From: Treponema sp.
GTDB taxonomy: Bacteria; Spirochaetota; Spirochaetia; Treponematales; Breznakiellaceae
Reading direction: 5' to 3'
DNA: 37,592 nt
Assembly: GCA_031275325.1 (NCBI GenBank)
Contig: JAISOX010000053.1
Location: 1-37,592, forward strand
Made by a program: the position numbers and the translations under genes. Positions 2,550 through 6,103 of this stretch are shown piece by piece (the stretch's first letter is position 1; each line of letters begins with the position of its first letter). The notes under the pieces were generated by a model that saw nothing but the letters and a program-made list of their open reading frames with translations, had not been told where the DNA came from and did not search any database.

Positions 2550-2660
2550 GAAGGGCAGCAAACTAGCCGCACGAAGCCTAGTCTTCCTTGTCGGGAAGCG
2601 GGACTGAACTCCTGTAACGGAATCCTTCCGTAAGACCCCCAATTTATTCGGCAGCCCATA
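2550..2660 (+). ncRNA. Structured leader, candidate metal-sensing riboswitch (NiCo/czcD-like)
   Basis: The leader between promoter and first gene has a closing pair GGGC (2553-2556) with GCCC (2654-2657), each flanked inside by AGC/GGCAGC. Inner helices are ACTAG/CTAGT (2562-2566 with 2578-2582), CTTCC/GGAAG (2583-2587 with 2594-2598), CGGGA/TCCTG (2599-2603 with 2610-2614) and CGGAA/TTCCG (2618-2622 with 2626-2630), with linkers CTGAAC and GTAAGAC. Paired GCAGC elements closing a multi-branched junction recall the NiCo riboswitch, and the downstream genes handle Ni or Co. The GCCACTG-type box of cobalamin riboswitches is missing. CCCCC (2636-2640) can pair with GGGG at 2660-2664 just before the ribosome site AGGAG, a possible expression platform. 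The class is from memory, not from a covariance search. Confidence 0.5.
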
Positions 2661-2685
2661 GGGGAGGCCATATAGGAGTTCTTCA

Positions 2686-3504
2686 ATGAAAAGCAAAAAC
2701 ATGCTCGTTACTTTTGCCTTGTGCGCGGCTATTGCGGCCGCGGCGCAGGCCCACGAGACCTTCATCATCCCCGGCGATACGTCGAAAGACTACAAAGCCG
2801 GAGATACCGCTGCCCTTATCGGCATTTCCTCCCACTATTTCGCGGTGGGCGAGGAAATCGAACCCCCCGAAACCGTGGAGATGTACGTTTACAAAAACGG
2901 CGTAAAGGGCGGGAATATCCCGCTGGAGGCAAACAGGGACCGGCTCTGGTATGAAGGGAGATACCGGCTGACCGACGACACGCCGGTAATCGCGGTGTTC
3001 AGGAGTATCGGCGGCTTTTATTCCATTCTCACCGACGGGAGCTACGCGGACGGCAACAGAAGCCAGGCGCTGGCCGCCAATCCAGGTAAGTCGGTCCAGG
3101 TATCCCGCTATTTTACCAAGTGGGGCAAACTGTACCTCAACCCGAACAGGAACGACCGGAACTTCAGCCAGGCCCTGGGCCTTGATTTTGAGATTGTCCC
3201 CCTCAACAACCCTGCCGAGATGAGGCGGGGTTCAAGCATGAGGCTTCGGGTGCTTTACAAGGGCCAGCCCTGGGCCAACGGGGAAGTCAAGGCGACCTGG
3301 GACTACTACGATTATCACACGATGGATGCCTGGGCGCAGACTGGAAAGACCGATACAAAGGGGGAGGTGAGCTTCCGGCTTGATCATGTGGATATGAAAA
3401 AACCGGTCCTGTGGATCTTCCAGGCAGGGGATACGCGGAAGTCGTCCCAGCCAAATGCGGATGAGGACAACCTCAAGGCAACCCTGGTTTTTGCGGTGAA
3501 GTAA
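2686..3504 (+). CDS. DUF4198 periplasmic component of Ni/Co uptake (NikK-like)
   Basis: A 272-aa secreted protein starting at ATG 2686 after TAGGAG. A signal peptide (MKSKNMLVTFALCAAIAAAA) is predicted to be cut after AQA, leaving His23 as mature residue 1 (HETFIIPGD). The body matches the DUF4198 family, beta-rich periplasmic proteins found beside NikM/CbiM transporters: an N-terminal domain with ...FAVGEEIEPPETVEMYVYKNG... and a C-terminal domain with WANGEVKATWDYYDYHT...GEVSFRLDH, ending LVFAVK. First gene of the operon, 24 bp before the NikL-like gene. Known role of the family: accessory metal handling outside the membrane for an ECF transporter; the metal, Ni or Co, cannot be told from sequence. 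Confidence 0.8.
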   Translation: MKSKNMLVTFALCAAIAAAAQAHETFIIPGDTSKDYKAGDTAALIGISSHYFAVGEEIEPPETVEMYVYKNGVKGGNIPLEANRDRLWYEGRYRLTDDTPVIAVFRSIGGFYSILTDGSYADGNRSQALAANPGKSVQVSRYFTKWGKLYLNPNRNDRNFSQALGLDFEIVPLNNPAEMRRGSSMRLRVLYKGQPWANGEVKATWDYYDYHTMDAWAQTGKTDTKGEVSFRLDHVDMKKPVLWIFQAGDTRKSSQPNADEDNLKATLVFAVK

Positions 3505-3528: not shown

Positions 3529-4020
3529 ATGAAACACCTGTGTGCCGTAGGGGTTGTGCTTTTGATGCTTCCCGCCGCGGTCTTTGCCCACGGCGTGGAG
3601 ATCTCCGATGTAACCGGGCGGCAGGATGTTTATACCATCAGGTTTTCCTATACGGATGGTACGCCTATGCTCTTCGCCCGGGTCAAGGTCTTCCCGCCGT
3701 CATCCCCCGACGCGCCGGCCCAGGAAAGTATCGCTGACCGGAACGGCTATTTCAGTTTTGTAAACGATGAGAGCGGTGAATGGCGGCTGACCGCGGAAGA
3801 CGGTATGGGACACAAGGGAGAAATAATGGTCGCTACAGCCCTAGCCGCGGCTCCTGGGGCGGAGGAAGCGGGGAAACCATCTGGCGAAAAGACCAGAGGA
3901 CCGGCTTCCCTGGGGACGCGGCTCATCCTGGGGCTCAGCCTGATCCTGAATGTCTTCGCCCTTTACGGTTTCGTGCTTGCGGGACTTGCGAAAAAGCGGG
4001 GCGGTTATGCACATCAGTGA
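3529..4020 (+). CDS. NikL-like membrane-anchored accessory protein of Ni/Co transporter
   Basis: 163 residues from ATG 3529 (a GTG at 3511 in frame adds six residues but has no better ribosome site). A signal peptide MKHLCAVGVVLLMLPAAVFA precedes His21 as the predicted mature N-terminus (HGVEIS). An Ig-like or carboxypeptidase-regulatory-like domain follows (YTIRFSYTDGTPMLFARVKVF...NGYFSFVNDESGEWRLTAEDGMGH), then an Ala/Gly/Glu-rich linker and one C-terminal membrane helix (LILGLSLILNVFALYGFVLAGL) with a basic tail. This is the layout of NikL proteins in NikKLMQO systems. The 3' end overlaps the cbiM start by 14 bp, so translation is probably coupled. Confidence 0.7.
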   Translation: MKHLCAVGVVLLMLPAAVFAHGVEISDVTGRQDVYTIRFSYTDGTPMLFARVKVFPPSSPDAPAQESIADRNGYFSFVNDESGEWRLTAEDGMGHKGEIMVATALAAAPGAEEAGKPSGEKTRGPASLGTRLILGLSLILNVFALYGFVLAGLAKKRGGYAHQ

Positions 4021-4606
4021 GGGGGTGCTTTCCGCGCCTGTCCTGGCGGCCGGCTGGGCTGTTACCGCAGGGGGCCTGGCCATAGGGTTACGGAAAACCC
4101 CGGTGGAGGAACTGCCGAAAACAGCCCTGGTTTCGGGGGTGCTTTTCCTTATAAGTCTGGTTCATGTGCCCCTGGGGCCTTCCAGCATACACCTGACCCT
4201 GCTGGGCCTGGCCGGGGTCCTGCTGGGGTGGAGCGCGATCCCCGCCTTGTTTACCGCGCTGTTCCTCCAGGGGCTGCTCCTCCAGTTTGGGGGACTCCTC
4301 TCCCTTGGGGTAAATACCGCGGTGATGGGGAGCGCTGCCCTGGCAGGATGCGCTGTTTTTAAGGCGCTGCCCCGGCGGGTGTACCTCCCCGCCGCGTTTG
4401 CCGCGGGTTTTATCGCGGTGATCACCGGCGCGGTTCTGGTAACCGCAGCCCTGTTTTTCAGCAGCGGAAACCTGGCCCTTACGGCAACGCTTATCTTCGC
4501 GGCAAACCTGCCCCTGGCCGCGGTAGAGGGTGCTATCACGGTATTGATGGTACTTTTCCTTGGGAGGGCCTTGCCGGATTATGTATTTGGACAGACTGGA
4601 ATTTAA
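4007..4606 (+). CDS. cbiM: CbiM/NikM substrate-binding membrane subunit of Ni/Co ECF transporter
   Basis: 199 aa. The start at 4007 is chosen because it gives MHISEG, the hallmark N-terminus of CbiM/NikM in which the free amino group and His2 bind the metal; longer in-frame starts at 3950 would bury it. Several hydrophobic helices follow, and the segment LVHVPLGPSSIHLTLLGLAG carries further His residues of the metal site. The protein is the S-component that captures Ni(II) or Co(II) at the outer face of the membrane. It overlaps the gene before it by 14 bp and cbiQ by 26 bp. NikM and CbiM are not separable with confidence here. Confidence 0.85.
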   Translation: MHISEGVLSAPVLAAGWAVTAGGLAIGLRKTPVEELPKTALVSGVLFLISLVHVPLGPSSIHLTLLGLAGVLLGWSAIPALFTALFLQGLLLQFGGLLSLGVNTAVMGSAALAGCAVFKALPRRVYLPAAFAAGFIAVITGAVLVTAALFFSSGNLALTATLIFAANLPLAAVEGAITVLMVLFLGRALPDYVFGQTGI

Positions 4607-5390
4607 AAGCGATTCTTTTAGGGCCCTTGATCCCCGCTGCCGTATAGCAGCCGGGGTATGCCTTATCTTCTCGGCTGTGAGCGTCTCCAATCCCCTGATC
4701 CTGACCGGCCTTGTCCTGGGAGCGGCTTTAACCCTGTGGCGGGATACGCCGCGGGTACTGGCCCGGCTCGTTCCGGTAAACATCTTTGTCCTCTTTCTCT
4801 GGCTGACCCTGCCCCTGAACGCCTTGGGAACAGGCTTTTTTGCCGCGTCCCAGGCAGCCGCAGGGGGCCTTTTCCCCGGAGGGACAGGCGGCGGAGGTTT
4901 GGAAGGGGCTTTGAAACAGGCGCTGATATACACCCTGCGGATCAACGCGTCGGCCCTTGTTTACATGGCCCTGATCATCCCCCTGGGAATAGGGGGTCTT
5001 ACCAACGCCCTGATGAAGCTCCGTTTTCCGGTAAAACTTGCCGCGCTGTTCCTCCTGAGCTACCGGTATATCTTTGTCATGTACCAGAGGGTCTTTGTCT
5101 CGGTACTTTCCCTGCGGCTCCGGCAGCCCCGGCAAAGCACCCTGGGCCGGTGGCGATCCTACACCGCGGTCTTCGGAACCGCCCTGATAAGCGCGCTCCG
5201 CCGTTCCCAAAGAATAGGCCGGGCCCTGCAAAGCCGGGGTTTCGGCGCGGATCTTCCCCTGACCAGAGCCTTTACCCTGAAGCCCGGGGACCTGCTCTTT
5301 TTCTGCGCTTCCATCCTCCTCTCGGTCAGCCTCCTGGTACTGGACGGCTTTTTCAACGGTTTTTTATCGGGGAATATATGGAACTTTTAA
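4581..5390 (+). CDS. cbiQ: CbiQ/NikQ, transmembrane T-component of Ni/Co ECF transporter
   Basis: 269 aa from ATG 4581 (MYLDRLEFKSDSF), inside the cbiM end; an in-frame ATG at 4560 would only add seven residues. The N-terminal DPRCRI motif is typical of EcfT/CbiQ. Membrane helices occupy residues ~25-130 and the far C-terminus. The coupling region holds the two EcfT Arg motifs: RLRQPRQ and RSQRIGRALQSRGF, the Ala-Arg-Gly type helices that dock into the ATPase groove. It links the CbiM substrate subunit to CbiO. The stop overlaps the cbiO start by 13 bp. Confidence 0.88.
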   Translation: MYLDRLEFKSDSFRALDPRCRIAAGVCLIFSAVSVSNPLILTGLVLGAALTLWRDTPRVLARLVPVNIFVLFLWLTLPLNALGTGFFAASQAAAGGLFPGGTGGGGLEGALKQALIYTLRINASALVYMALIIPLGIGGLTNALMKLRFPVKLAALFLLSYRYIFVMYQRVFVSVLSLRLRQPRQSTLGRWRSYTAVFGTALISALRRSQRIGRALQSRGFGADLPLTRAFTLKPGDLLFFCASILLSVSLLVLDGFFNGFLSGNIWNF

Positions 5391-6103
5391 GGGTGAGCGG
5401 GCTTTCGTACAGCTACGAAGATGTTCCGGTACTCCGGGACATCAGTTTTTCCCTGGAAAGCCGCGGCCGGCTCTGCGTTGCCGGGGCCAATGGTTCGGGA
5501 AAATCGACCCTCCTGGAGCTTATCGCGGGCTGCATGAAACCCGCCTCCGGGGAAATTCTGATAAACCGCGAAAAGGTTTCCCCGAAAAACCGCGGGGTGC
5601 AGCGGAAGACGGGCATGGTGTTTCAGGACCCGGACAACCAGCTCTTCATGCCCACGGTTTGGGAAGACACGGCTTTCGCGGTAATGCACCGGGGGGTAAG
5701 CCCGGCTGAAGCGCGGGACCTGGCCCTTGAAACGCTCAGGGCAGTGGGAGCGGAACATCTTGCGGATCGTCCCCCTTATAAACTCTCCGGCGGGGAAAAA
5801 CAGCGGGCCGCCATCGCCTCGGCCCTGATCCTGAAACCGGAAATTCTGCTTTTGGACGAACCGACCGCTGCGCTTGATCCCCGTGCCCGGAAAAACATCA
5901 TCGCCCTGCTCCGGGGCCTGAACTGCGCGGTCATCATCGCCGGCCACGATCTGGACATGATGCTGGATCTCGGCGGTGAGGCGCTTTTCCTCCACGGAGG
6001 AAGTATCGCTGCCCGGGGCAGGGCCGGGGAACTGCTGCGGGACGGGGCTTTTTTGCGGAGCATAGGCCTGGAATTACCCCTGAGCCTTTCACTCCGCAAC
6101 TGA
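5378..6103 (+). CDS. cbiO: CbiO/NikO, ATPase subunit of Ni/Co ECF transporter
   Basis: 241 aa, start ATG 5378 (MELLRVSGLSYSYEDVPVL) inside the end of cbiQ; the same frame is open further upstream but only as a shadow of cbiQ. Walker A GANGSGKST is at residues 36-44, Q-loop in MVFQDPDNQLF around 82, signature LSGGEKQR at 136-143, Walker B ILLLDEP at 156-162 and the switch His at 190 (AGHD). Length is that of a normal single-domain EcfA. It hydrolyses ATP to power metal import. It is the last gene of the operon; no clear terminator follows, and a gene remnant begins three bases after the stop. Confidence 0.92.
   Translation: MELLRVSGLSYSYEDVPVLRDISFSLESRGRLCVAGANGSGKSTLLELIAGCMKPASGEILINREKVSPKNRGVQRKTGMVFQDPDNQLFMPTVWEDTAFAVMHRGVSPAEARDLALETLRAVGAEHLADRPPYKLSGGEKQRAAIASALILKPEILLLDEPTAALDPRARKNIIALLRGLNCAVIIAGHDLDMMLDLGGEALFLHGGSIAARGRAGELLRDGAFLRSIGLELPLSLSLRN

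Follow-up and report, generated by a model that had tools for sequence, protein, structure and literature searches.

The importer operon near the start of this Treponema sp. contig is preceded by a leader with several paired segments, which raises the question of what kind of regulatory RNA it is and whether it belongs to a known riboswitch class. The window analysed here is the whole stretch of 37,592 nucleotides, contig C6 of a genome of 2.15 Mb in 178 contigs that is 66% complete. Downstream of a structured 5' leader at about 2539-2681, the genes are arranged in the order NikK(DUF4198)-NikL-CbiM/NikM-CbiQ-CbiO, in agreement with the original prediction of a riboswitch-like leader in front of a nickel/cobalt ECF importer:

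2686 to 3504, + strand: nikK (DUF4198), the first controlled gene (protein domain annotation)
3529 to 4020, + strand: nikL-like gene (NF058648 match, under the curated cut-off)
4007 to 4606, + strand: cbiM/nikM (PF01891; CbiM models)
4581 to 5390, + strand: cbiQ (PF02361)
5378 to 6103, + strand: gene for a CbiO-type ATPase (PF00005)

Comparison with related loci points to a candidate new leader-RNA family, unlisted in Rfam, that precedes genes for nickel uptake and nickel cofactors in a subset of gut spirochaetes; as judged from sequence, the window leader is probably a derived sub-type of this family. In an exact-pattern scan of species genomes, the records with the same leader were titled 'Treponema sp.' and 'Spirochaetaceae bacterium'; these MAGs presumably originate from the termite gut.

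The leader had been likened to the NiCo (czcD) riboswitch (RF02683), with which it shares the tie of a leader RNA to nickel/cobalt transport. NiCo riboswitches are known mainly from efflux genes. In that class, binding of Ni/Co prevents a terminator and the genes are turned on (PMC7917058). In contrast, the window leader and its relatives precede importer and cofactor genes, are built of separate hairpins and appear to act by SD occlusion, and the search for a terminator in the leader found none. No Rfam match was obtained in the whole window at gathering thresholds, in any family for positions 2440-2760 at E<=10, or at the leaders of 15 related loci at E<=3. Thus, the scan with the NiCo and cobalamin (RF00174) models that had been proposed gave neither a match at E<=10 nor a clear hit to another known class, and both classes were rejected; what stands is a riboswitch-like leader, not a NiCo variant. 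Guanidine-II (mini-ykkC, RF01068) consists of small hairpins in tandem, whose short loop is fixed while the stems are free and the linker varies, and controls genes at the level of the SD. The nickel leaders resemble it in this layout and in their predicted control at the SD, but they carry the pentaloop NYGAA instead of ACGR tetraloops, have two to four hairpins, precede nickel genes and give no match to the model. CsrA or ANTAR sites were also rejected, since the words that define such sites are missing from the loops, and so was a tiny leader ORF through the loops (AUG AAC UCC UAA in some leaders), because C frequently replaces the U of the loop and the stop codon is not conserved.

The features of the window leader are as follows:

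2505 to 2533, + strand: promoter-like pair TTGACA-17-TATATA (by eye; spacing the same in the orthologue L007)
2539 to 2561, + strand: P1 hairpin of 9 pairs with pentaloop ACGAA at 2548-2552 (fold; covariation)
2562 to 2582, + strand: P2 hairpin, outer stem ACUAG/CUAGU, inner GC-ACGAA-GC, loop at 2571-2575 (common fold)
2583 to 2598, + strand: P3 hairpin CUUCCU-UGUC-GGGAAG, in the window sub-type only (common fold)
2600 to 2613, + strand: P4, the last hairpin, GGGA-CUGAAC-UCCU, which holds the anti-SD CUCC (counterpart of GGAG-AUGAA-CUCC in the wider family)
2606 to 2616, + strand: anti-SD strand GAACUCCUGUA, mutually exclusive with P4 (fold; permutation tests)
2617 to 2631, + strand: P5 hairpin ACGGAA-UCC-UUCCGU within the SD helix (fold; L003 has GCGGGA/UUCCGC)
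2671 to 2681, + strand: SD strand UAUAGGAGUUC, with GGAG at 2675-2678 (fold; two-state energies)

Transcription from the promoter-like pair, which is absent from the list of the strict promoter scan because its second hexamer has no T at position 6, would start at the foot of P1. P1 is formed by GGGCAGC (2553-2559) and GUUGCUC just upstream. Among four distinct sequences, both sides have changed at five of its nine pairs and 97% of cells are paired, compared with 36-71% in slid controls. GGGCAGC had instead been drawn as an arm pairing with GGCAGCCC (2650-2657); that pairing competes with P1, and GGCAGCCC is absent in L003/L004, so the arm is not retained. Similarly, small hairpins are present as had been noted, but the helices proposed at the time are not the conserved ones. 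The inner hairpin of P2 is kept with other loops, AUGAA in L007 and GUGAA in L003. The fold of the leader is only moderately better than that of shuffled sequences (z -2.2, 6/200), and it is the homologues rather than this z-score alone that make the predicted structure convincing.

The wider family was delimited with two sets of leaders. The nikK set came from a protein search in 200 family genomes with RNA features disregarded, and the larE set from a protein search done after pattern hits had pointed to larE. Most nikK leaders hold several hairpins with the same pentaloop, as in L065 (CAGC-AUGAA-GCUG, UGUUCU-GUGAA-AGAACG and GGGG-AUGAA-CUCC). With all loops counted, AUGAA was the top pentaloop in both sets, with 42 hairpins against 0.49 expected in 38 nikK leaders and 22 against 0.38 in 29 larE leaders; by a strict count, at least one AUGAA hairpin was present in 24/38 and 13/29, respectively. 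Of the AUGAA words, 56% in the nikK leaders and 61% in the larE leaders were enclosed by a stem of four or more pairs, versus 4.5% in the background (Fisher 2e-25 and 2e-18, the leaders being related and thus not independent draws). The resulting design is two to four hairpins with an NYGAA pentaloop, mostly AUGAA or ACGAA, separated by linkers that range from a few bases to tens of bases; leaders with three hairpins occur commonly, and two-hairpin leaders exist (L126, L139 and L146). The upstream stems vary freely and covary, 24 cells having changed on both sides, a level reached in 0/500 shuffles. Because the rows of this alignment (A4) were picked as hairpins, its percentage paired is biased to structure; the loop-based counts are free of this circularity. 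The last hairpin, by contrast, hardly departs from GGAG-AYGAA-CUCC, with variants GGAA/UUCC and GAAG/CUUC.

A second type of nikK leader carries YGAA tetraloops (L052, L053, L054, L058, L059, L060, L061 and L100), for example GGU-UGAA-GCC, GUUC-UGAA-GAAC and UGU-CGAA-GCA, CGAA and UGAA being the top tetraloops; these may be a different form of the recognition element seen in the NYGAA leaders. In addition, the spirochaete locus L067 has a Flavo-1 RNA match ahead of its nikK leader (2638-2724, - strand; 39.8 against a gathering threshold of 42 bits, E 4e-5).

The window leader agrees with the wider family in the order of leader and SD and in the ACGAA loops of P1 and P2, which provide at least two NYGAA pentaloop hairpins upstream of the SD. 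The GGRR-NYGAA-YUCC hairpin whose 3' strand pairs with the SD is present in the shortened form GGGA-CUGAAC-UCCU with an 11-pair SD helix, and the gene downstream is that of a nickel transport operon, nikK. Moreover, the window nikK is 89% identical to its orthologue in G088/L050, which has a leader of the wider family's type, and L070 has a bridging leader, its last hairpin having the form GGGAACGAACUCC that is also found in L003/L004. The closest leaders to that of the window are those of L003/L005 (nikK operon, one genome) and L007 (nikK operon), while the leader of L004 precedes a gene for a family-5 solute-binding protein and that of L038 a NikL-like gene. In the common fold of these close relatives, the P1 loop is ACGAA (AUGCA in L003), the P2 loop is ACGAA, AUGAA or GUGAA, P3 is CUUCC..GGGAAG and P4 is RGGA-NNGAAC-UCCU. 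The weakest link in assigning the window to the family is that R2, a covariance model of two adjacent hairpins, gave no match to the window leader at E<=1, because P3 separates the hairpins and the P4 loop is shortened. Model R1, made from the window sub-type alone, found only the window and one doubtful place across the phylum, since this sub-type is rare. Its exact core pattern matched spirochaete leaders and four stray places in other bacteria among species genomes and one stray place among viral contigs; the plasmid search gave no match.

In the family, the CUCC of the last hairpin can pair either within the hairpin, leaving the SD free, or with the SD, hiding it, the two states excluding each other. 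For the window leader, the lowest-energy structure joins GAACUCCUGUA to UAUAGGAGUUC and hides the SD; it lies about 6 kcal/mol below the best P4 fold. Across 42 leaders the two states are close, with a median difference of 1.3 kcal/mol favouring the hairpin; the hairpin is the predicted ground state in 23/42 and the SD helix in 14/42. Beyond the CUCC:GGAG core, leaders pair better with their own SD partners than with permuted ones (p 0.02 strict, 0.007 with one slip; p 0.03 by duplex energy). The covariation at the SD is modest because any CUCC matches an SD. Occlusion of the SD is thus likely, as the earlier idea of an OFF platform held, but not through the CCCCC (2636-2640) and GGGG (2661-2664) it had named, as L007 reads GACGCC there; the conserved alternative at the SD is that between GAACUCCUGUA (2606-2616) and UAUAGGAGUUC (2671-2681). 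Some larE leaders have no anti-SD and the hairpin adjoins the SD, where hairpin binding might block instead. As anatomy, this modelled translational switch is well founded; its direction and signal are what we infer.

The genes under the element define its likely function. The pattern of last hairpin plus SD gave 21 matches in 200 genomes against 3 in reversed controls, and R2 at E<=0.05 found 56 places in 44/140 family genomes, the majority of them preceding nickel genes; hits lying within coding sequence were discounted as chance matches (L119, L124, L125, L127, L130, L242-L244 and L249). LarE and LarC serve the nickel-pincer cofactor pathway, and both are encoded downstream of the element, matching TIGR00268 with 312.8 bits (cut-off 150) and TIGR00299 with 153 (cut-off 90), respectively. 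Further downstream genes encode NikK, NikA/CntA-like solute-binding proteins and NikB-like permeases, the latter two below curated cut-offs, as well as FmdE, FecCD permeases and, by inspection, a methyltransferase followed by FecB-, FecC- and FecE-like proteins. The FmdE, FecCD and methyltransferase operons have the element in common (L112, L123, L214, L218, L231, L232, L235, L237, L240, L241 and L248), and these spirochaetes may therefore possess another, uncharacterised system for importing nickel (or a metal complex). Lipoproteins of no known function also carry it (L118 and L220), and they are possible surface proteins of the nickel regulon. The genome of the window has a second copy before a NikB-NikC-NikD-like operon (G000:C143:6596-6630; R2 E 1.8e-5). 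Its larE (L152) is without NYGAA hairpins by the criterion used, and therefore control differs between genes of one genome.

The range seen comprises the family of the window and one other family of the class, in which G581 and G585 have the element before larE-larC and before methyltransferase genes. A sample of 29 larE upstream regions from across the phylum, almost all belonging to other families, yielded a single weak hairpin and nothing credible as the element. Other phyla were covered by one exact pattern of the window sub-type, and a wider range is possible.

Taken from these sequence patterns, it is likely that the element is a leader RNA acting in cis to control translation within a nickel regulon. 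A nickel-status signal would act on the NYGAA hairpins and so set the state of the anti-SD, which is retained by the hairpin in the ON state and covers the SD in the OFF state. Should stabilisation of the last hairpin release the SD, a hairpin binder at the importers should mean 'nickel short'. It seems slightly more likely than not that the NYGAA array is the receptor of a new nickel-status sensor, either the first class of nickel or nickel-pincer riboswitch governing uptake and cofactor synthesis or a bacterial nickel counterpart of IRE/IRP with a putative RNA-binding protein.

For a protein that reports nickel status as the iron-regulatory protein does with its hairpins, the chance seems not far short of even. 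We lean slightly towards such a protein, active when nickel is short, because the number of hairpins (two to four) and their spacing vary freely around a constant loop, and because import would be turned on by a metal stabilising the last hairpin, which is the wrong sign and counts against direct nickel binding; binding by a metal-free form would fit the sign of control. The narrow taxonomic range is what a dedicated protein would lead one to expect. However, no candidate has been found, and the window gene list has none beside the operon. A true riboswitch, in which paired NYGAA loops dock and are themselves the binding site for Ni2+/Co2+ or the nickel-pincer nucleotide, is plausible at rather less than an even chance. 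The ACGR loops of guanidine-II dock with Y-G pairs both ways, and the Y of the nickel loops is C or U, each able to pair with G; fixed loops on free stems, the presence of no more than two hairpins in some leaders (L126, L139, L146) and targets in both nickel import and nickel-pincer cofactor synthesis (larE-larC) are consistent with it. A compact conserved core is absent, though, and the common three-hairpin leaders and linkers of a few to tens of bases do not suit docked pairs.

That the regulon concerns another metal or complex, such as cobalt, cobalamin, iron or a metal-opine, we regard as unlikely: FecCD permeases with a FecB-like protein, FmdE and a methyltransferase are among the targets, one solute-binding protein is closest to CntA and CbiM-type components can transport cobalt, but LarE and LarC, which serve the nickel-pincer cofactor, lie far above their curated cut-offs, and NikA- and NikB-like matches, though below cut-offs, also point to nickel. 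A diverged NiCo or cobalamin riboswitch is highly improbable, as only the kind of downstream gene speaks for it, against the Rfam results given above for the window and the 15 relatives and an architecture that is a chain of independent hairpins.

The inferred logic of the nickel leaders, control by metal status via leader hairpins, is akin to that of IRE/IRP iron control, from which they differ in the loop, the domain of life and the lack of a known binding protein. The TwoAYGGAY motif (Weinberg 2010) reportedly also consists of hairpins with a conserved loop word. Its loop word is AYGGAY and it occurs in other taxa with no gene association listed (PMC2864571). Termite hindgut DNA was part of that 2010 survey, whose motifs include Termite-flg and Termite-leu besides TwoAYGGAY, and nickel is nowhere mentioned in it (PMC2864571). 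In the literature searched, mostly without subscription papers and preprints, no paper came up that describes a riboswitch for nickel uptake or the nickel-pincer cofactor, or RNA control of these genes.

Nickel uptake in bacteria is usually explained by DNA-binding repressors of the NikR type. With one leader family across nikK, nikA-/nikB-like genes and larE-larC, RNA control becomes testable with short synthetic RNAs, and the element may serve as a marker with which to catalogue the nickel regulon in uncultured spirochaetes of the gut.

Two other features lie upstream in the window. At 918-1284 there is a tandem array of a 21/42-base unit (CGGGAGACAGAACA...), with about 14 copies of 21 bases and several readable frames. 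Two similar stretches, at 690-900 and 2130-2400, surround a 76-aa reading frame (MPSMTDEEADGLDEAW...); of these, the one at 690-900 is broken and continues into the tandem array.
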